A stretch of DNA of 64,000 bases from Amyelois transitella (taxonomy: Eukaryota; Arthropoda; Insecta; Lepidoptera; Pyralidae): assembly GCF_032362555.1 (NCBI RefSeq), contig NC_083506.1, positions 605,501 to 669,500 of the forward strand. Reading direction: 5' to 3'. Positions 4,182 to 58,100 of the stretch are shown here, in pieces (within the stretch, counting starts at the first letter, position 1; each line of letters begins with the position of its first letter). The notes under the pieces are model-generated. The model had not been told where the DNA came from. It saw only the letters and a program-made list of their open reading frames with translations, and did not search any database. The translations under genes and the position numbers were made by a program.

Positions 4182-5035
4182 ATAAGTTACAATATAAACA
4201 AAAGTAGGGACGTATACAATGGTGGATATTTGTTACTTTTTTATAATAATAGGACGTATAAAAAGAGTAACAAATATGCTATGATCCTTTTATACTTGTT
4301 TAGTTTCATCCACGGGAACGAAGCTACGCGCAAATGCTAATTCAGAAAATGGCGGGGTCGATTAAGGAAATTAATTCAAGAAATTGTAAGCTTAACCGCA
4401 AACTGAAGTCTGTTCAAAGTCGATTCTAAAAATAACTTTGTGCTAAACTAATATTAAAGTTACTTATCACTTTCACCTATAATTTTATTATGGAAATTTT
4501 AAAAGTTATTTAATTTTTAAAATAGAGAGTTAGTATATTGAGAAGGAATACCTACATTATTTTACAGACTTATATACCTTTAAGGATGTTTGTTGGTTTG
4601 TTGGTGGAAATCGATCTAAGATGGCCGCCGTCACCAAATATTGGATTAGGTCATAGACATCGGATACATCAATTCAGGTTTAAGATAAAAAGGCTTCAGA
4701 AGCAGAATAATACACTATAACAAAATTGTGTCGCGTGTTTAAATTTTTTTTATACTGTTAACTTTTTCCTTGAATTTTTAAAAAAAGCAAATGTCACAAT
4801 TAAAAAATATGTGCGACTGTACTGGCACACAAGACTCAGCGCGTGTGCACATGACGTAGCCGACTGTACTCACTATTCTGATAACGTTATTTGACTATTA
4901 GACGTTTGGAAAAAATGTAAACTGTCTGCGACTTATTAACGTAAACATTAATTTATTTATTTAGAAGGTTCTTATTTAATAACCTACAGATTTGACGAGT
5001 TTTGAAAGTGATTTAATTTTATTTTTGTTTTTTTT
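4182..5035. other. Intergenic stretch, mostly unrecognised
   Basis: Holds a small inverted repeat at about 4227-4275 (TTTGTTACTTTTTTAT against ATAAAAAGAGTAACAAA) and a Helitron-like 3' scrap near 4310-4345 (GGGAACGAAGCTACGCGCAAA). No gene seen. Confidence 0.4.
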
Positions 5036-5110: not shown

Positions 5111-5367
5111 TGCCGTGTGGTTCCCGGCATCAATACAAAAAAGAATAGGACCACTCCATCTCTTTCCCATGGATGTCGTAAAAGGTGACTAAGGGATAGG
5201 CTTACAAACTTGGGATTCTTTTTAGGCGATGGGCTAGCAACCTGTCACTATTTGAATCTCAATTTTATCATTAAGCCAAATAGCTGAACGTGGCCATTGA
5301 GTCTTTTCAAGACTGTTGGCTCTGTCTACCCCGCAAGGGATATAGACGTGACCATATGTATGTATGT
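5111..5367 (+). repeat. Family A retroposon, full length
   Basis: Near-consensus copy running from GCCGTGTGGTTCCCGGCATC to the ATATGTATGTATG tail. Confidence 0.88.
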
Positions 5368-13833: not shown

Positions 13834-16800
13834 TACACCTAATAGCAAAGGTTTTTGTCTGTGCATTTGAAACAATAAACTTTTTTTATATAATACAAAT
13901 AAGTATGAAACTTAAATTCTTGCTTAGACTTTTTTTATTAGCTATGAGAAGGCTTTCACAAAAGCTGGTTGAAATTACTAAAGCTTAGTCTATATAATAT
14001 GGTGAGGTTATGAAAGATTGTACTATTAATTATCACTAGGGTTTCTGCACGTGACACATATCACGTGAGTACAGTCAGATCAGATATTATACGACAAAAT
14101 TAAAAATGAAGTTGCAATGTGGTAGGATTGAAGAACAATAATGCAAGTTGTCTTTTTTTAACACCAATCAAATTTATACTACTAAAGTTATTTCTGAAAG
14201 TCCGACATGACCACAATCTAGGCGTGGTAAAGTCAGGTAATTACTAGAGATGCCAAGAATATTCGGCAATTATTCGGTATTCGGCCACTTTTTATGCTAA
14301 ATAAATATTCGTTGGCCGAATATTCGGCGCTTCGGCCGACCGCGTTGCCGAATATTCGGTATTCGGCCAATTCACTATTCGTGGCAACTCTAGTAATTAC
14401 GCAAAGTGATTTTCACAAAAGTATAGACAATTGTAAGTCTTTTTTTGGAAAATATACGAACGTTTTTAAGACGTTGAGGTCCTTTCTGGGCGGAACAAGC
14501 TTATTTTTCTGGTTACCTTTTCTATAAAATGCTTCGTCGAACTGTCTTTTTTTTACCAAAAAAGTACAATAAGGAAAAACTAAATTTGGATGGGAAAACT
14601 GTGAATTTGAAACTAAAATATGGGGTTGGCTTCATACATACATACATATGATCACGTCTATATCCCTAGCGGGGTGGACAGAGCCACCAGTCTTGAAAAG
14701 ACTGATAGGCCACGCTCAGCTGTTTGGCTTAGTGATAGAATTGAGATTCAAATAGTGACAGGTTGCTAGCCCATCGCCTAAAAGAGGAATCCCAAGTTTA
14801 TAAGCCTATCCCTTACTTAAACTTGGCTTCACTGTTGTAATATTTATAAATTGTGTATCTAGTCGTAATATATTAAGGGTGACTGTACTTACAGGTTACA
14901 TCGTATTGATTACAAAACGTGAGACGCTGGGAATCGAATTACCGCTATTGTATCGATGCTAGTTATGATCGATTTATAATTGGTTCTCATTTGTATCCAG
15001 AATACTTTGTAATTTCCATTATATATTTTTTTTCTACGTTTATAAATCTTGTTTTTCTGAATGGTACTTATTTAAATTAAAGAAGTCTTTGGATAGTGTG
15101 ATGCTTTCATAGAATTTTGTATATATCAATAATGGCTAGAATATTTCTAGAAATTACCGCGGGAACGAAGTTTCGGACAAAAGCTTAATTATTATACCAT
15201 ACCGCTGAGAGCGGCCTTTATGTCTTTGCAAGACTGTCGGCTCTACTTACCCCGTGAGGGATAAAGACGTGATTCTATATATGTAAATGGACAAGAATGT
15301 TCGAAATCTTAAGTTATTAAGATAATATATATATTTGATCTTCTTCCTCCTGACTTTTGTCCCGGTTCCTCCCCAAAGAGGTGTGGATGCAAAGTCTAAG
15401 GTATACCTTAGACTTTGGATCCTGGATTGGGTGAGTCAGGTTTTTATACGAAGCGACTCCCATCTGACCTCCGCAACCTTTGCAGGTAATGGATCCATGG
15501 TTACACATCCAGTTGCCTTAATGTGCAGGTAAGTATTCAAACTCATGTACATAACTTTGAATAGAGTCATTGGAGTACATGGCCCAGGTGGGATTTGAAC
15601 CTGTGCCTTTCTGCGCATCACGGATTTCAACCGGGCACCTTACCCATTCGACCATCGGCGCTCATAAGATATATCTATTTAATGTAGATATAATATTGTG
15701 TGGTTCCCGGCACCAATACAAAAAGAATAAGACTACTCCATCTCTTTCCCATGGACGTCGTAAAAGGCGACTAAGGGATAGGCTTACAAACTTGAGATTC
15801 TTTTTTTAGGCGATGGGCTAGCAAACTGTCACTATTTGAATCTCAATTCTATCATTAAGCCAAATAGCTGAACGTGGCCATTCAGTCTTTTGAAGACTGT
15901 TGGCTCTGTCTACAAGGGATATAGACGTGACCATATGTATGTATGTATGTATAATATATGTGCCCAATGTGTGGTAACATATCAAACACTGTTATCACTA
16001 CACTGCGTTCATTGTCTCCCACATCTGTACGTCTGTTTGTCATGATTTATATGTAGATAGTGGCAGGAAACTGAGAAGTTATCGAGAAAGTGATTTGTAG
16101 TCGTATTGCGCTACAAACACGATAACATGATTTAATTTGCACGACATTAATATTGTTGTAATTGGACTGGATGTTGTTAAGAAGGTTCATGTGAATGTTT
16201 AATTATATATTTTATATAGAGATACTACATGCCGTGTGGTTCCCGGAACCAATATGAAAAAGAATCTCATTTCCCGTAGACGTCGTAAGAGGCGACTAAG
16301 CGATAAACTTGGGATTCTTATTTTAGGCGATGGGCTTGCAACCTGACCCTATTTTGAATCTCAATTCTATCAAAAGCCAAACAGTTGAACGTGGCCTCTC
16401 AGTCTCTTCAGGACTGTTGGCTCTGTCTACCCTGCAAGGAATATAAACGTGACTATATGTATGTAAATACCACATTTATCATGTAGTATGTAGTAGCACC
16501 TCATTTATCTAGTAGATACTATTGATATAAAAAAATATTGCGTCGTTGAAATCATTACAGAAACTTTATAGGTACTATGGCGTCGGCTATCTTTGTGAAA
16601 TCACAAAAATAAAAACTGAATATGACTCTATTAAAATCAATCTTTAATCGTATCATACATACATACATACATATCATCACGTCTATATCCCTTACGGGGT
16701 AGACAGAGCCAACAGTCTTGAAAAGACTGAAAGGCCACGTTCAGCTATTTGGCTTAATGATAGAATTGAGATTCAAATAGTGACAGGTTGCTAGCCTGTC

Positions 16801-19800
16801 GCCTAAAAAAGAATCCCTTGTTTGTAAGCCTATCCCTTAGTCGCCTTTTACGACATCCATGGGAAAGAGATGGAGTGGTCCTATTCTTTTTTTTTTTATT
16901 GGTGCCGGGAACCACACGGCACAATCGTATCATGTGTGTAAAAAGTATTTATTATGCTTTTAAAAATTTTCAAGCATTTTTTAAAGTACTTGTATTATGT
17001 TCAATTGTAATTTTACAGGTCTTCCTAATAATTTTTATAGTTTATAGTAAAGTCTATGTAGAAACTGTATTTTTTTTAATTGTTTACTGAATGCCCCACA
17101 AAGTATAAAAATAGCTTGTTGCCATTTCTCTCAATACTCTTAAAAATATGTTTTTTTTTTATATATAGAAATATCATTCAGTTAAGTGCGTCACATTATT
17201 TTGGTCGAGGTTTGAGTACATACTTCAGGGCTGGCGGAATGGAAACGTCCCCAATATTTACGTTCTTCAGACATTCCCTATTATATTTTTCCCTTTGGGT
17301 AAAATTCGCACGCCCACGCCGCTAAAATGGCGATCAAAGACATAAACCTCTTTATATTTTTACCTTCACGAAATATTTTGTTATGGCGTCACCGCTTTAT
17401 TGAATGCGTGCAATTTGATGCTCTAAACCTGGTTTTGGAATTTGCCAACCAAGGGCGATCGGGACCAACAGCTTATGAAATCATTTTTTTTTAAATAATC
17501 ACAGTAAGTTTTTCGTTAGTTTATATCCTCTCATTTCCCGTTAAAGATTTAAGATATTTTATTTTATTAAAGATATTTTAGATGCGTTAATCTCATTTTA
17601 ATGTCCTAGTACAGACAAAGAAATTAAAATGAGATTGATCTGAGATCATAATATAATATATTATTTTTTTATATTATCCAAGTTTTATTTTACTTGTTCC
17701 TTTCTTTCCGTTATCGTATAAAACTAAATAATTTGAATAATAAAAAAAATTAAGACCTTGTTGTACTCATAATATGCAAATAAAAATTTGAATTTGAAAT
17801 AAGTATAGACTAGTAGGATACTCCTAACCCACTCAATAAAAATGACATGTTGATTATTATATCATGTACCTACGAGGGTGGTTAAGTCTTCTTGATAAAC
17901 AATCACATAATGAGCTAATCTTTGTTGTTTTTCTCACGATTAAGCATGAATGCATAGGCATTAGGCGCACGCGCATGACAAATTAGAAATATTTTTACGT
18001 TATTAGAACTGTATTAATTGCTCTGTTGAAGAGCAAAGCGTTGATGGCTGCGTGGTTAAGGTGTCCGCTTTAATTTTTGCCAAAGTGCTTAGATTTGAAA
18101 CCCGCTATGGTCACGTACTGATCATGAATTATAGTGTTTAATAATTATATTACATTATTAAAGTGTTTCAACTTGATTAAGGTTATTTATTTAATTATAA
18201 TTAATATTATTTAATACGGCGATGTATTCTCGATTAACGTTTTTAATTATGTGAAAAACCGTGTGTGAGCAAAAATTTTACCGCGCGTCCCTACCTGTTT
18301 AATATTTTAGATGCTTTTGTTGTTAATGCATAAGTATAACTTGTCTGAAAGTATTCATTTGTTAATTTCATCGCAATTTTAATGGCATTAGTCTCGGTTG
18401 CGCCTGACCTCCCTATGACCTGAAGAGCCTTTGACATTTATTTGTGTCTGAGTCATATAATAATAATTATGTACCTAACGCAAAAAAAAAACGATACGAA
18501 TGCGTAAACTATAAAACATAACGGTGTATTATTATGTAAATTCTTGGCTATGACGTGAATAGCCGCCGGAAACACGTTAGCTGACTCGACGATTTGGCGT
18601 AAAAATATATTTGAATTTTTACTTACCACTATATATATCATTAACTAACTTATTTCATATGCTGGTAATGGTTCATATATATGTATGTAGATTTAAATCC
18701 GGTATATTTTTAGGTAAATTCAATGGTTTCTTGGATAGAACAAAATTTGAATGTGATCATATCATGATGATAAGTAATTTTTAGTTAATTATTTACACAA
18801 AATACAAATTCCAAACATAAAACAAATAAGTAACTAGGATTAGTTCTCGCATGACGGGGATAAGGCATGAATCCAACTTGAATTTGAAACTATATTTTAT
18901 TATATTTCCGTAACTTTTTTTATTAATTTATATATTTTCTGTAAGAATTGAACATTTTGAAATATAGAACCTTAACTTATACATATAAACCTTAAGTATA
19001 ACTATTAAGTTATCGTTAATAATACCAAAGTTTAAAAAATAAAATAAAAACCTATGACATATTTCGAGAAAAGATTTAAAGTGCCTTCTGCTTCTCTTGG
19101 GTTGTCTTGGCCATTCCCTCAACTATATGGTCCTCCATCATCAAACCTGTAGGTACTGTAATGACCTTTTAACAAATCACATGGGTGCCTTATTCTCATC
19201 AATATAAATTCATTAAATTCTTGGGATTCTTCTTAAGCGATGGGGTAGCAACCTGTCACTATTTCAATGTTAATTCTATCATTAAGCCAAATAGCTGAAC
19301 GTGGCCATTCAGTCTTCAAGACTATTGGCTCTGTCTACCCCGTAAGGGGTATAAACGTGACCATATGTATGTACATATGTAAAAATTTATTAAGTATTAC
19401 AATTTTTTAAAACCGATCGCATAATATAACATTCATTGCGAGTGAAATAAAATAGTAGACACAAAAAAGTCGAGGTGCCGGCCACTGCCCACCCCGTGGG
19501 AAAGGGTGTGTGCACACCTGTGCGGTGACATTTGGACTCGACTTTATCTGCGCTCGGTAGACTGTGACACGTAATTATTGTAAAGGGGTGAATACACTAT
19601 TAGTGATGACGGCGTGACAGTAAACACTGTAGTCATCCAGTAGTTGAACAAAATATTTATATTTTTGTTACATTTAGTATTTTTTTTATCATGCGGTTTT
19701 TTCGGAATGCCATAAAAATTATTACAAATCTTGCTAGATTCTAATTGTAGTATGTAGAAGTCGTAGGACAATCAGGAAGATATCCAGCTATACTTTTAGG

Positions 19801-44497: not shown

Positions 44498-44499
44498 TC

Positions 44500-44668
44500 A
44501 TACATACATATGTTCACGTCTATATCCCTTGCGGGGTAGACAGAGGCAACAGTCTTGAAAAGACTGAATAGTCACGTTCAGCTATTTAGCTTAATGATAG
44601 AATTGAGATTCAAATAGTGACAGGTTGCTAGCCCATCGCCTAAGAAAGAATCCCAAGTTTGTAAGCCT
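44500..44668 (-). repeat. Family A copy, left part, split by a transposon
   Basis: Antisense from CATACATACATATGTTC to AAGTTTGTAAGCCT. The sequence continues at 47942 with GCCTATTCCTTAGTCGCC, so the copy was one piece before the 3.27-kb element inserted. Confidence 0.85.
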
Positions 44669-44847
44669 GGGTCATTCCACAAAAATCTGATTAATTCTGA
44701 TTTAGTTTTGTCCTAAAGATTTTTAAGATGCTTTTGGATACTTGAGTAGTGTATATCACGTGTAATTGATTAACTATCTTACACCTAAAAGGGCCAGTCA
44801 TTTTATCCTTTATTTTAGGAGAAATTTGTAGTTTTTCCAATTTAGAC

Positions 44848-44925
44848 ATCTATGGACTGACAGCTCTAGTTAGGAACTGATTATTGGGCATCTAGGGACT
44901 GATATGTATTCCTAGGGACTGATAA
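44848..44925. repeat. Left subterminal motif array of the transposon
   Basis: Four variants of (C/T)TAGGGACTGA in about 80 bases: CTATGGACTGA, TTAGGAACTGA, TCTAGGGACTGAT, CCTAGGGACTGAT, all in the same orientation. Likely transposase-binding sites. Confidence 0.7.
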
Positions 44926-44969
44926 TCAATAGTGATATTGTAATGAAATAAGTTGGTTATGCATTTGGA

Positions 44970-45476
44970 ATCATATTTATTTATAAAAAAAAAAAGACAA
45001 AAAACATAACTCGTTAACACTTCTTAACAAAAATGAAATTAATAATGGAATTCTTCCAATGAAATTATTGACCAAGCTTTGCTATGTGAGTCACTTCTTT
45101 GGTTGTTGGGTATAATTTAGACAACCACAACCTAGCCTATTTATTATCAAAATAACAATAAGTAATACTTTTTTTTAATAATAATCAGTCACTTTTAACT
45201 ACTAAAGTAATTGAGGTTCCTATGTAATTAGAACAAAACATTTTAAATACTTTTTTTACTTAACACTTTATTGTAAAATCGGGATAGTCTTAGTCTAAAA
45301 TAAACTGAACAAAATCAACATTCTAACTAATCAAAGACAAACAAAATCTTTAAGTATTATGATATTCAGCCTTAGTATTTGGACGTATCAGTTTCTCTGT
45401 ATCATTATTTAGTAACATAGAAGACTTAACAATATATATAAAATAATCTCACTTTTCAAAAACGTTTATAGCCTTT
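44970..45476. other. Transposon interior without coding signal
   Basis: AT-rich, no open frame. A catalytic domain would be expected downstream of the coding region, but none is visible here. Confidence 0.4.
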
Positions 45477-46827
45477 TTAAAACCATAAATCACCTTTGAC
45501 AATCAAACTGGGCATCGACAGTTTTCCAATTACATCTTCATAAAGTACGTCTGCGACATCACCTTCGTCTAACTTAAATAAGTTCCCTTCTTTATTGCAT
45601 ACTTTAAGGAAAGTAACTTTAGTAGAGCAACCGTTACACTGTCTCAATAAGCATTTTTCGGAATAACGATTGCAATAAAGTATCTGTAATCCTGTTTGAT
45701 AATTGTCGAAGTGCAGAATCTTAGATTTTTTTTAAAGTAGACAATTTTAGATTCATATTTTCATGTATTATGCAGGCACAAGTATCGCGAGCTGTTAGTT
45801 TAGGGGTAGGTTTTACAACCCAAAATTGACGTAATCTACAAAACAGTGAATATCCAATTGTCAATGTCTTTGTTTGAAGAAACTTTTGGTGTATATTTTC
45901 CAATGAGTCTAGCAAATACCGTTTTTGTTTTTTGATTTTATTGCGAGTAATGCACTCCTTTTTGCCAGCTGCAGCGCGACTAATGCTATCGTCTTCATAA
46001 AATCTGTGAACCATTTCAACTATAAAATCTTTCTTAGTTTTCTCACTACGTTTAATAGTTTTGCGCCGAATCTTGTTATACAACAAAGAGTTACACCCTT
46101 GTCGCCAAAGTTTATATTTTTCTACTTTGGGACCAGACAAAAGTTTGAAGTTGGATTTTTCTTGATGAGATCGAGCTTTTGAAATATTCTCTGTAATTTG
46201 AGCTTGCAAAATTTCACCAAATAAAGCCTTTTTGACCAGTTCTCTACTTTAGTTAGGATCTTCGGCCATTTGTTCTATTTTACTTTTAGGTGTGAGCAAT
46301 TTCTTCGCTTTCTTCATTTTTCGTTTCAGTCTACTGTATTTCTTCTGTTGAGTATTAAGTTTCTTCTTTAACTTATCAATAATTGCACATTTTTCCTGTA
46401 ACACTTTATTTCTTATCTTCCGTTGATGTCGACTTCTTCTTTTAGCTTCCACTTGTCTAAGGTCTTCGTTATTGTAATTAATGATCTGTGGTTCTGGAGC
46501 TATATTTTCTTCATTTTCAGATGTAGGTGGCGTATTCTGAGCAACATAATTCTCACAGTCTTTTGTAATTGTTTTCTTCTTTCTGTAATCAGTAGAATAT
46601 TTCTTCCATTTTTTTCTAATTTTTCTCTGCTCGCGTGGGGTCATATCCTGAATAGACTTACGTTGTCCCTTCTCTTTCTTTTTTAAATATTTCTGTCTTT
46701 CTTTCTCTTTGTATTCTGCCAACAGAATTGGATCACTCTTGATTTTTTCCAATCGAGCTTTTGCGGCGGCTGATTTTTTAAGGGCTATATCCTCTTTGGA
46801 TAATTTTGGTTTCTTTTTTGGTGGCAT
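45477..46827 (-). pseudogene. Broken transposon protein (uncharacterised family)
   Basis: First segment 46249-46827 starts MPPKKKPKLSKEDIALKK and is lysine-rich with a coiled-coil-like stretch. An in-frame TAA (46246-46248) separates it from a continuation in the same frame (to about 45721) carrying FIVEMVHRFYEDDSISRAA, AGKKECITR and LRQFWVVKPTPKLTARDTC. A frameshift near 45722 leads to the last part, with Cys-rich LYCNRYSEKCLLRQCNGC and a final stop at 45477-45479. The pattern RFY..DD.S...GKKE, then RDTC.C..HEN, then C...C..C belongs to a repeat-associated family I know only as uncharacterised. Proteins of that type usually continue into a longer C-terminal, presumably catalytic, region that is absent here. 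Confidence 0.7.
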
Positions 46828-46930
46828 TTTTCTGCAAAATGGAAAAATTCATTCATGCTTAATTATATGACCAACAACCACAAACACATTATAATTATTC
46901 TAAACTCAAAATAAAAAAGCCAATCGTTAA

Positions 46931-46993
46931 ATGTAGTATTATTCATTTTATTAAAGATATAAAATGTTTATTAAAATGAATAATACTGCATTG
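46931..46993. repeat. Hairpin upstream of the transposon ORF
   Basis: TGTAGTATTATTCATTTTAT and ATAAAATGAATAATACTGCA-like arms (about 24 bp, two mismatches) flank a short loop, about 100 bases upstream of the transposon's ATG. Confidence 0.6.
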
Positions 46994-47146
46994 ATATTAA
47001 CAACATAAAAAAAGTCATTTAGGGTTAAGTTTCTTATATAAAATAAGACTTTTTTGTCCCCTAATATCTTTTCACAAAGTTTTTAGTTCATTTCGCTTTT
47101 AATCTAGATTTAAATATTTTGTTAATATCATAATATATAATTATCG

Positions 47147-47217
47147 TCATTCCCTAGCTATATCCGTCAGTCCCTAGCACAGTTAAAAGCTAGGGCCTGA
47201 TGGTCCAGGGACTGACG
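47147..47217. repeat. Internal/right motif array of the transposon
   Basis: Copies in both orientations: TCATTCCCTAG, TCAGTCCCTAG, CTAGGGCCTGA, CCAGGGACTGACG. Further units at 47363 (GAGGGAATGAC), 47551 (GCTAGGGAATGACG), 47748 (CCTAGGGACTGATAT) and 47765 (CGGGGACTTA). Confidence 0.68.
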
Positions 47218-47941
47218 ATTTGGAGTAAAACTTAAGACAAATGCAGGTTAAAACTCTAATTCAAGCTGTTCAAAACGATGTATCGTAGAAGACCGAAAAA
47301 TCACACGTAAATATTGTTTAATTATCATCAATTACCTATTATGAACAATAAAACTACTCACCGAGGGAATGACAAAGTGACTGGATCCACACGTGCTTCC
47401 GCAACAACTGCCGCGTTCGCACTAATTTACAAAATGGCCGCCTCTCAGCGACTATGGTCTATGGATAAATTGGTGCCGTACTATAAAATCGACTACATGT
47501 CATTCACTCTTTATTCATATTAGTGCGCTAAATTTTAAAATCTTGGTCTGGCTAGGGAATGACGTATTAAATCGAGGACACTTTATTAACTTTAAAAAAT
47601 TGTTTTATTTTTTATTTAAACTACAAAATATGAATAAAATTTGGTGTAAATATGATAAACTAGACAGTGGTTAAAGCAAATAAAGTATACAGTTGATGTA
47701 TCTATAAATATGTGTGCCCAAACATAAAATTTTGGAGTGCGGACATGCCTAGGGACTGATATTTCGGGGACTTAATGAGAGATTTCAAATTTATTTTTAA
47801 TATATATATTCCTAAATATATCTGTACTAAATAAAACACATTTCGAGCTGTTATTTAACAATTTTGTTACAAAATATTACTAATTGTACTATGTGAAAGG
47901 TGTTGCGGACAATGAGTGGTACTATTATTGTGGAATGACCC

Positions 47942-48000
47942 GCCTATTCCTTAGTCGCCTTTTACGACATTCATGGGAAAGAGATGAGACATTTATTTGG
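47942..48000 (-). repeat. Family A copy, right part, split by a transposon
   Basis: GCCTATTCCTTAGTCGCC to GGGAAAGAGATGAGAC. Its first four bases are the transposon's target duplication; the 5' end of the family A copy is lost beyond 48000. Confidence 0.82.
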
Positions 48001-55145: not shown

Positions 55146-58100
55146 CTGAAATTAAAATAAATTAGTTCAAATTATTTTATAAAAGAAAACTATTTATTTA
55201 AAATTAATTAACAATAACAATGGCACTGTAATTTTTTTAAACGTAGAAGGAAGTACTTGACAAGGTTGATCCGAATGTATGTATATTTTATTTATTTATT
55301 AAAAACTTCATTGCACAAATACAATGTATAAACGTATAGCACAATTAGCAGACTTAATGCTAGAAGCATTATCTACCAGTCAACCATTGGGTGTGGCAGA
55401 GAACTTTAAGTGGGGTCAAACTCAAGAAATATATTTATACATACATACATACATATGGTCACGTCTATATCCCTTGCGGGGTAGACAGAGCCAACAGTCT
55501 TGAAAAGACTGAATGGCCACGTTTAGCTATTTGGCTTAATGATAGAATTAAGATTCAAATAGTGACAGGTTGCTAGCCCATCGCCTAAAAAGAATCCCAA
55601 GTTTGTAAGCCTATTCCTTAGTCGCCTTTTACGACATCCATGGGAAAGAGTTGGAGTGGTCCTATTCTTTTTTGTATTGGTGCCGGGAACCACACGGCAC
55701 AAATATATTTATCCCTACACAAAAAGTATACAAGTGCGTCATTGCTTATAACTTATACTAGGCGTGGTGCATGTCTGCGTTTCTCTCAACAATTTTGTAA
55801 TTTTATTCATTTACAGCGCCATTTTTACAATGGTTGCAAGACTATATCGTACGAGTGCGATTATCGACTTCTCAACAGACTAGTTTTTAGTGTAGATTCT
55901 ATTCTATTTATTTCTGAACAATGTACATTGTATTGAAATGTTATACTTAGTTCACTAATATATTCTTAAATTCTATTTTCCATTCACCAGGATGTGCAAG
56001 ATGTCTTTCTTAAAGTGGTGACAGAGACTTTCCATCCAGTTGGTACTATGTAGCTTTTGCTTTGAAATCGTTCCTGAGAGTCTGTTAGTTAAAAATATTC
56101 TACACTTTGGACTGAAAGGGAAAATACCTAGATCTTTCAGCGTGACTTGGCTGGCGATACTTTTAAATACTTAACATTTTCCCTTGAGATGAAGCTGTAG
56201 TCACACGATGGTCAGATTAGGATATTTTTGGCCCGACTTAACTTCTTAGCTGCCAAAGTAATGACCAGTGACACTACCGGCCACGTTTTTTATTTTAAGT
56301 ATTAATTCATTACTATACATACACGTCGATATCCCTTGCGGGGTAGATAGAGCCAACAGTTTTAAAAAGACTGATAGGCCACGTTTAGCTGTTTGACTTA
56401 ATGGAAAACTAAGACTCAAGGGATAGCCCTTAGTCGCCTTTTACAACATCCATGGGAAAATGATAAGTGGTCCTGTTCTTTCTTTTCTAACGGTGCCGGA
56501 GACTACACGGCACTTAACTATAAGTTTGGAAATACCGCTTTCTCGCTCGAAAAATTGATTTCCTATCCGATTTATCGAAATCGAATCGATAGATTCGATT
56601 TCTATCGATCGATGGGTCCGGCGGTCGAGGATAGTGATAAGATAACAGACCTAGGTGCGCCAGCGTGACGCCCATGGCGCGGCGCAGCGCGGGCCGCGGC
56701 GCCAGCTCGCGCGGCGGCACGCGCGCCGCCATGCCGCGCAGCATGGCCGCGCCCGCGCGCGCCAGCTCGCGCTCCGCGCCGCCCGCGCGCGCCGCCAGCG
56801 ACAGGTGCCAGGGCGGCGGCGCCGACAGCCTGGCGGACGAAACCAGGTTTCAGTTGTTGTTGTTACACTCGTACCTGGGTGACCGAGCGGTGCTCGGTGG
56901 ACGTGACGAAATTGAAACGCGAGTCGACAGTGCGGCGGCCAAACAGAATGAGACTTAATGCACTATTTACTATTTTGGATTATTTTAATCTTTTAAACTA
57001 GCGAGTTTATTTTACTAGCTGTGCCCGCGACTTGGTTCGCGTGAAATAGGTATTATGGGCATTACTGAAGCCCCCAAGAAGGAATAACTTTTCCCGTTTT
57101 TTTTCTCATTTTCCATTATTTCTTCGCTCGTTATAGTTGCAGTGTGATGATAAATAGCCTAAAGCCTTCCTTAATAAATTAAACACAAAAATTTTCAATT
57201 CGAACCAGTAGTTCCCGAGATTAGCGCGTTCAAACAAACAAACTCCTCAGCTTTATAATATAAGTATAGATAAAGTTAAACGAGTGTTCATGATTTACTT
57301 TGTCCTTTAATATGAAACGCGAATTACCAGACTCAGAAGAAGTGGAATCAGCACAGCATAGCAAGCGTGACGCCGTTTTTACCGCGCGAAAAAACGCTGT
57401 TCCACTTTATATTATGACATGAAACGGGACAGCGATAGTGTCTTGCTACAGGGCAGATATATATAACAAGTGGGATAAGATTATCCTATAACTTATACTA
57501 CAAAACGAGCAGTATTGCACTCGCGTTCTCGAAAACGGCTCGAACAATTTAGTTGAAATTTTTAAATCGGGCGTAAAAAACGATTTACCTGGGTTCCACG
57601 TCCAGGAAAATTCGTTTTCTCATGATTTCACCCAAAAACATTTTCCCATTTAAAATGGCCGGCTAAAGATCAATAATGTCCACCGATCACATCTCGGTCA
57701 CCCAGGTACTTATATAATAAATAAGATAAAGTACCAAAGAATAACAAACGTATAGTAGTAACAAGGAGAGTGTGGAGGGAAAGGTCGGAGTGGGAAGACC
57801 TAGACGAACGTATCTTGATCAAATTAAGGACGTCCTGGTAAAGGGTCAGGTCAAGAGTACCCGAAACCGCCGAGCTTGCATCAAGAGAGTTATGAATGTG
57901 GATGAAGCGAAGGAAGTATGCAGAGATCGTGGCAAGTGGAAAGAGGCGTGATTTTATGTATTTATGTATGTAATTGTGGCGACATCTCTACGCCACTCGC
58001 CACAAACATCAAATCAAACAACTACTGTCAATCATCGCGAAGAAATTGACGCGCTCAACCAATAGCAGAGAAGAATCTAAGACGCGATTTCAAAGATTTC

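Follow-up and report, generated by a model that had tools for sequence, protein, structure and literature searches.

The Sola superfamily of DNA transposons was reportedly first described in 2009 by Bao and colleagues. Subterminal repeats are known from other groups, namely hAT, CACTA (En/Spm) and P elements, whose target site duplications (TSDs) measure 8, 3 and 8 bp, respectively, and a duplication specific to TTAA is characteristic of piggyBac, Sola3 and Kolobok. P elements have also given rise to the KP derivatives, in which in-frame internal deletions keep the DNA-binding part and leave a repressor product. According to published descriptions, Sola elements have a DDD transposase, a 4-bp TSD and mostly a size of 2-9 kb (PMC10741241). 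Sola2 is described with an 888-aa transposase, terminal inverted repeats (TIRs) of 12-13 or 21 bp and 4-bp duplications that are AT-rich and follow AWWT in an amoebozoan element (PMC3627910). Sola2 also appears among the insect MITE superfamilies (PMC5199201), and subterminal repeats are described in hAT Buster elements (PMC4298943).

In this study, we analysed a 64-kb stretch of genomic DNA (hereafter the window), in which an element of 3273 bp (44669-47941, coding strand minus) was recognized by its ends and by comparison with a full-length copy as a non-autonomous deletion copy of a family designated F1. Its left TIR, GGGTCATTCCACAAAAAT (44669-44686, plus strand), pairs with the right TIR (47924-47941, minus strand) at 17 positions across 18 nt (94% complementary), and comparison of the flanks revealed the duplication GCCT on both sides (44665-44668 and 47942-47945), 4 bp being the sole length that fits. 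The terminal 12-mer GGGTCATTCCAC occurs at two sites (44669-44680 on the plus strand and 47930-47941 on the minus strand), and no further site was found in the 64-kb window with up to one mismatch allowed; in 100 dinucleotide shuffles the mean was 0.15 sites, and two sites were never reached. The insertion splits a retroposon, the left part of which (44498-44668, plus strand) resumes at 47942-47986 in the alignment. When the flanks were joined with one GCCT, the retroposon became continuous, and 22 other pieces in the window aligned through the joint for at least 30 bp beyond it, for example 55438-55653, which matches at 94.5% over 217 bp. The preliminary description of this locus, which had proposed a complete transposon whose removal restores a retroposon, was right on both points: 44669-47941 is a complete insertion within the retroposon. 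By itself, the window copy is an ordinary dead derivative. The interrupted retroposon has 43 other matching pieces in the window (such as 55438-55653, 5157-5366 and 16656-16872), fragments of one copy being counted apart.

To place this copy in its genomic context, a 327-Mb assembly of 33 contigs, which includes the window and is probably that of a moth or similar insect, judging by its repeats, was searched. The 12-mer end had 15 matches, nine of which belong to F1 (located in the window and on C12, C24, C29, C18 and C32) and six of which are unrelated; the reversed pattern had seven. With fragments included, the right end of F1 was found six times and the left end five times. One full-length copy was found, on C29 (L054:5001-9531), which is 4531 bp long, has the TSD ATTA and contains an open 865-aa frame from the first ATG. 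F1 is a small family. The 865-aa protein had at least 56 matches in the genome at E values up to 0.001, including many open frames and sister copies of equal score. Relatives with 29-63% protein identity (29% for F5) were read from nine families. Full-length copies across the families measure 4.0-6.0 kb, and full-length frames are about 865-1150 aa. F2 (63% identity to the 865-aa protein) comprises four 4.03-kb copies that are 99.95-99.98% alike and one shortened copy, and F3 (48-49% identity) comprises ten copies of about 4.13 kb that are 99.7-99.98% alike, with an open frame in nine of the ten. Because the near-identical copies (99.7-100% for the five of F2 and the ten of F3) lie at different sites, both families have moved recently. 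In the 819-aa family (L094-L097), sister copies agreed at 99.8% along a stretch of at least 1.5 kb that precedes the frame, and repeats were seen downstream. Downstream of a 907-aa transposase-like frame (L099:1-700; the 907-aa family comprises L098 and L099), short Cys-rich coding-like stretches with CxxC pairs were noticed by eye, which possibly represent an accessory gene of a larger element.

Ends and duplications were compared in 27 copies from nine families in which both ends were read (25 copies of the main set plus L083 and L079). Other copies with different ends or TSD lengths, named beforehand in the preliminary description as evidence that would speak against its proposal, were not found among them: all 27 have inverted GGG/GAG ends, beginning with GGGT, GGGC or GAGT, and a 4-bp duplication, which is ATAT in 14. 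A length of 4 is the only possibility in 12 of the 25 copies of the main set, and 13 ATAT cases also fit other even lengths. The TIRs are imperfect and about 9-25 nt long, with the shortest ones in F5. Not counted for duplications were L053 (299 bp of right end), L057 and L080 (left part lost), L077 (no end pair found) and three further F5 copies. Assignment to piggyBac, Sola3 or Kolobok was rejected, TTAA being the duplication in one of the 27 copies (L079).

The coding remains of the window copy, defined by open reading frames and alignment, consist of three minus-strand fragments, in which all three protein motifs quoted in the preliminary description are present. The Lys-rich N-terminus (46249-46827) ends in a TAA that corresponds to residue 193 in the full-length register; the second fragment (45721-46248), in the same frame, contains the first C-x-C-x2-H motif; and the third (45477-45731), in a shifted frame, has the last cysteines of the C/H cluster directly joined to the C-terminal tail. 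Further upstream, a putative intron in the transposase 5' leader (46832-47361, minus strand) is suggested by consensus only, with a donor-like CG/GTGAGT and an acceptor-like TTTTGCAG before the ATG. In comparison with the full-length L054, 1215 bp are missing in frame (approximately residues 403 to 808, junction at 45612-45618). This deletion starts just past residue 399, where the C/H cluster has its last cysteine, and none of the four invariant acidic residues in the presumed core is left, which agrees with the earlier view that the copy lacks its presumed catalytic part. The other lesions, besides the TAA, are an 8-bp deletion and a 1-bp insertion, both frame-changing. The same junction was observed in two other F1 copies, L047 and L048, which have other flanks and the TSD ATAT. 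Since one junction is found at three loci with different flanks, the deleted form has moved or multiplied after the deletion arose, presumably in trans. All three deleted copies now carry stops, and the in-register stops differ among them, save codon 55, which is common to L047 and L048. A separate event is seen in L078 (G000:C3:12232007-12234046), an F2 copy that has lost about 183 residues of the core in frame (approximately 413-596), keeps the C/H cluster and has an otherwise open 681-aa frame; its protein is a candidate natural repressor.

When nine family proteins (two of them partial) and the window piece were aligned, C349, C351, H354, C383, C384, C391, C396 and C399 were invariant in the covering rows (8 or 9), and D495, D573, E608, H611 and D617 were identical in all nine covering rows. 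From this pattern, we infer that the 865-aa protein is a DDD/E transposase with D495, D573, E608 and D617 as its presumed core; the proposal of a DNA transposon with this protein family as its most likely transposase stands. Profile searches against Pfam, NCBIfam and PDB gave no convincing match, and the weak unrelated names that appeared (best E 0.0098) were taken as chance; an integrase chain matched at E 0.79 with residues 334-371, outside the presumed core. The Pfam integrase core, a trait of Ginger/IS481EU (which have a 4-bp TSD), was not detected among the 10 members searched, with E values up to 0.1 considered. In viral contigs, two protein scans revealed no confirmed relative. Pattern scans gave 1 and 0 hits in viral contigs and 37 in contigs of prokaryote genomes, and when the window protein was compared with these 38 loci by tblastn, no convincing relative was seen (best E 0.036), nor did tblastn of the 865-aa protein against phages give any match.

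A further feature of the window copy, absent from the preliminary description, is the motif (T)AGGGACTGA, which is repeated near both ends and is found at equal distances in F2 and F3. On the left side, four TAGGGACTGA-type 10-mers start at 44851, 44871, 44893 and 44913 (44851-44922, plus strand), the first two of which are conserved slots. The right side contains an inverted pair (47147-47176, minus strand, starts at 47147 and 47167), a direct pair (47191-47215, plus strand, starts at 47191 and 47206) and three single sites on the plus strand (47363-47372, 47553-47562 and 47750-47759), about 574, 384 and 186 bp from the end. In nine families, the array has two left and seven right slots at fixed distances, the right side extending over 600 bp. 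Motif centres lie 188 and 208 bp from the left end, and 186, 384, 574, 730 and 744 bp (one strand) as well as 768 and 788 bp (opposite strand) from the right end; the spacing is 20 bp on the left, and 198, 190, 156, 14, 24 (to the inverted pair) and 20 bp on the right. The family motifs are AGGGACTGA, CAGGGGACTG and CAGAGGACTG, which are related to each other, CCAGGGTAGA, CAGGATNCTGA, CAGGTTAATTAGA, CCGAAATGATA and GAAGGKAATGA. F5 (the L084 family) has a longer left array, in which six sites spaced by about 20 bp occupy the stretch 181-289 bp from the left end.

In the AT-rich ends, k-mer multiplicity was only weakly telling, as in four of seven families (F3, L073, L074 and F4) the highest observed value also occurred in shuffles, and slot tests were therefore used. 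The motif of each family was chosen among the repeats of that family, and the closest families served to set the slots; L074, F5, F4, L083 and L079 stood outside the slot-setting. All nine slots were filled within 5 bp in the window copy, F1, F2, F3 and L073, and seven of nine in L074, which has another motif; 2000 shuffles each of F1, F2, F3, L073 and L074 (the window copy was not shuffled) filled at most two. With the motif CCGAAATGATA, F5 filled 8/9 slots within 10 bp (shuffles at most three), and F4, with CAGGTTAATTAGA, filled 5/9 within 10 bp (shuffles at most two); at looser settings F4 filled all nine, but its shuffles reached six. In L083, which was examined once the slots were fixed, every one of the nine slots has a site of the CAGGATNCTGA type that departs from it by 0-1 changes, and the strand of these sites tells little because the motif is nearly palindromic. 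A seed-based scan, which is given the spacing and no motif (maximum score 60), scored 43-59 in the nine families and at most 40 in 12 shuffles of each, and three control stretches scored 38, 39 and 42 (the last one a coding control); F5, with 43, is marginal by that test alone. In the 819-aa and 907-aa families, neither ends nor an array were found within the short stretches covered, and the seed scan gave 38 for each (shuffle maxima 40 and 43, respectively).

The array was also used to locate element ends. L079 scored 49/60 in the seed-based scan (12 shuffles at most 40), and its array placed the right end near 4896, where the local sequence suggests 4898 and the duplication TTAA. The left end, predicted beforehand near C8:9200188 with the TTAA taken from the right flank, was found at 9200191 with TTAA before it, which means that the prediction was off by 3 bp, and the inverted ends agree at 21 of 22 positions. 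In cross-scans, close motifs overlapped (F1 with F3, F3 with L073), and the motifs of L074, F4 and F5 were unshared with others, except for one F4 slot hit by the L074 motif.

As to the position of the array relative to the gene, a donor-like GGTRAG is present 566-580 bp from the right end in six of nine families, and an acceptor-like AG precedes the ATG in seven of nine (by eye and by consensus only), the other two having broken frames. The right array thus appears to span the presumed promoter and a 5' leader intron. In three of the nine families (F2, F3 and L073), a GCCGCCAT/CGGCCATCTT-like motif, which we take to be of the YY1/Pho type and which is perhaps a promoter element, lies about 501-511 bp from the right end. 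Speculatively, the gaps of approximately 198 and 190 bp in the right array are near the nucleosome repeat.

Based on these features, the group is best filed as Sola2-like, a likeness of features to published descriptions. It includes the 4-bp duplications, which are AT-rich overall (ATAT in 14/27) although the window copy itself has GCCT, the conserved D495, D573 and D617 plus E608 in 9/9 rows, with a presumed catalytic role, and short TIRs with one transposase in elements of 4-6 kb. On the other hand, the Sola2 descriptions consulted mention no subterminal array, and the ends here are GGG(T/C) or GAGT. Short repeated motifs near both ends, as probable transposase sites, are shared with hAT, CACTA (En/Spm) and P elements, which differ in duplication length (8, 3 and 8 bp versus 4 bp here). 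A full-text literature search found no description of such an array among the matches listed, which is weak evidence of absence as most subscription papers were outside its scope. Searching the literature with GGGTCATTCCA listed matches that looked like primer lists by title, and the single match for GTCATTCCA with transposon terms was bacterial and was set aside.

Our main reading, which we hold at a probability of roughly 0.8, is that the element derives by deletion from a Sola2-like cut-and-paste transposon whose nine-site array docks its own transposase. The Lys-rich and Cys/His N-terminal part of the 865-aa protein would dock near the left end on two sites, at distances of about 188 and 208 bp, and near the right end on seven, at 186-788 bp, of which the innermost two are inverted. 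The transposase would cut at the GGG(T/C) or GAGT ends and insert, most frequently at ATAT, with a stagger of 4 bp. Both ends and both arrays are kept in the deleted form, which could therefore be moved by the enzyme from a full-length copy. As the motif differs by family within one nucleus and the slots are constant, the simplest view is that the element's own protein reads the array, and that selection maintains the geometry of their complex to a greater extent than the sequence of the sites. We lean slightly towards the stronger version of this idea, a nine-slot platform in which spacing has stayed fixed at 29-63% transposase identity and the motif has been replaced wholesale and in concert, i.e. 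the geometry is conserved and the code is free. We know of no case in which slot positions have outlasted complete motif replacement.

The fixed positions might instead be leftover DNA homology between families, which we regard as distinctly unlikely. The right ends of F1, F2, F3, L073 and L074 do align with 41-53% identity (mean 0.459), above the level of eight sets of shuffled right ends (mean 0.395, range 0.33-0.48), which had about twice as many gap columns, and either shared descent is still visible in these five closest families or indels have been selected against. Fixed positions alone are therefore not decisive there, and the case for geometry rests on F5, L079, L083 and F4, in which the motif differs most. 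In F5, F4 and L079 the motif has been replaced, yet most slots are kept; moreover, the ORF start shifts between about 40 and 370 bp from the innermost site among F1, F2, F3 and L073, whereas their site-to-end distances differ by at most 4 bp. That the array serves transcription or a host DNA-binding protein rather than transposition is also unlikely. The right sites do lie in the presumed promoter and 5' intron, with the donor-like motif at a similar place in six families, but with a host protein one motif would be expected throughout one genome, whereas the motif differs by family, and sites are present at the left end as well, beyond the coding part.

Docking of the element's own transposase, the reading we prefer, may be accompanied by a second role of the shortened copies, namely that, besides moving in trans, they make or made a repressor. 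This is conceivable but doubtful. As in the KP derivatives of P elements, the shortened F1 and F2 copies keep the presumed DNA-binding half and drop the core in frame, the F1 deletion starting just after the last cluster cysteine and L078 arising separately with its frame still open. However, there are just two cases, a third of all deletions would be in frame by chance, and the F1 copies, unlike KP, have decayed, which leaves a repressor role here only putative. The rank of the group had been raised in the preliminary description, where it was suggested that the combination of ends, duplication and protein could define a poorly described superfamily. Neither this nor a new superfamily is supported because the features match those of the described Sola2 group, and a superfamily distinct from Sola seems improbable: profile searches did leave the protein without a convincing relative, and Sola2 was compared by description only, but TSD, TIR, transposase and size all agree with what is published for Sola and Sola2.

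What is new here is a subterminal array of nine slots, the distances of which are fixed across nine families and the motifs of which differ by family. With near-identical open-frame copies of several families, the host genome offers natural material for the biochemistry of a little-studied transposase group, and the array gives a testable picture of the complex, in which the ends are asymmetric, nine sites serve for docking and gaps come close to the length of a nucleosome. If true, this would be a clean example of joint change in a protein and its many DNA sites, and the slot spacing would be usable for locating element ends without sequence similarity.
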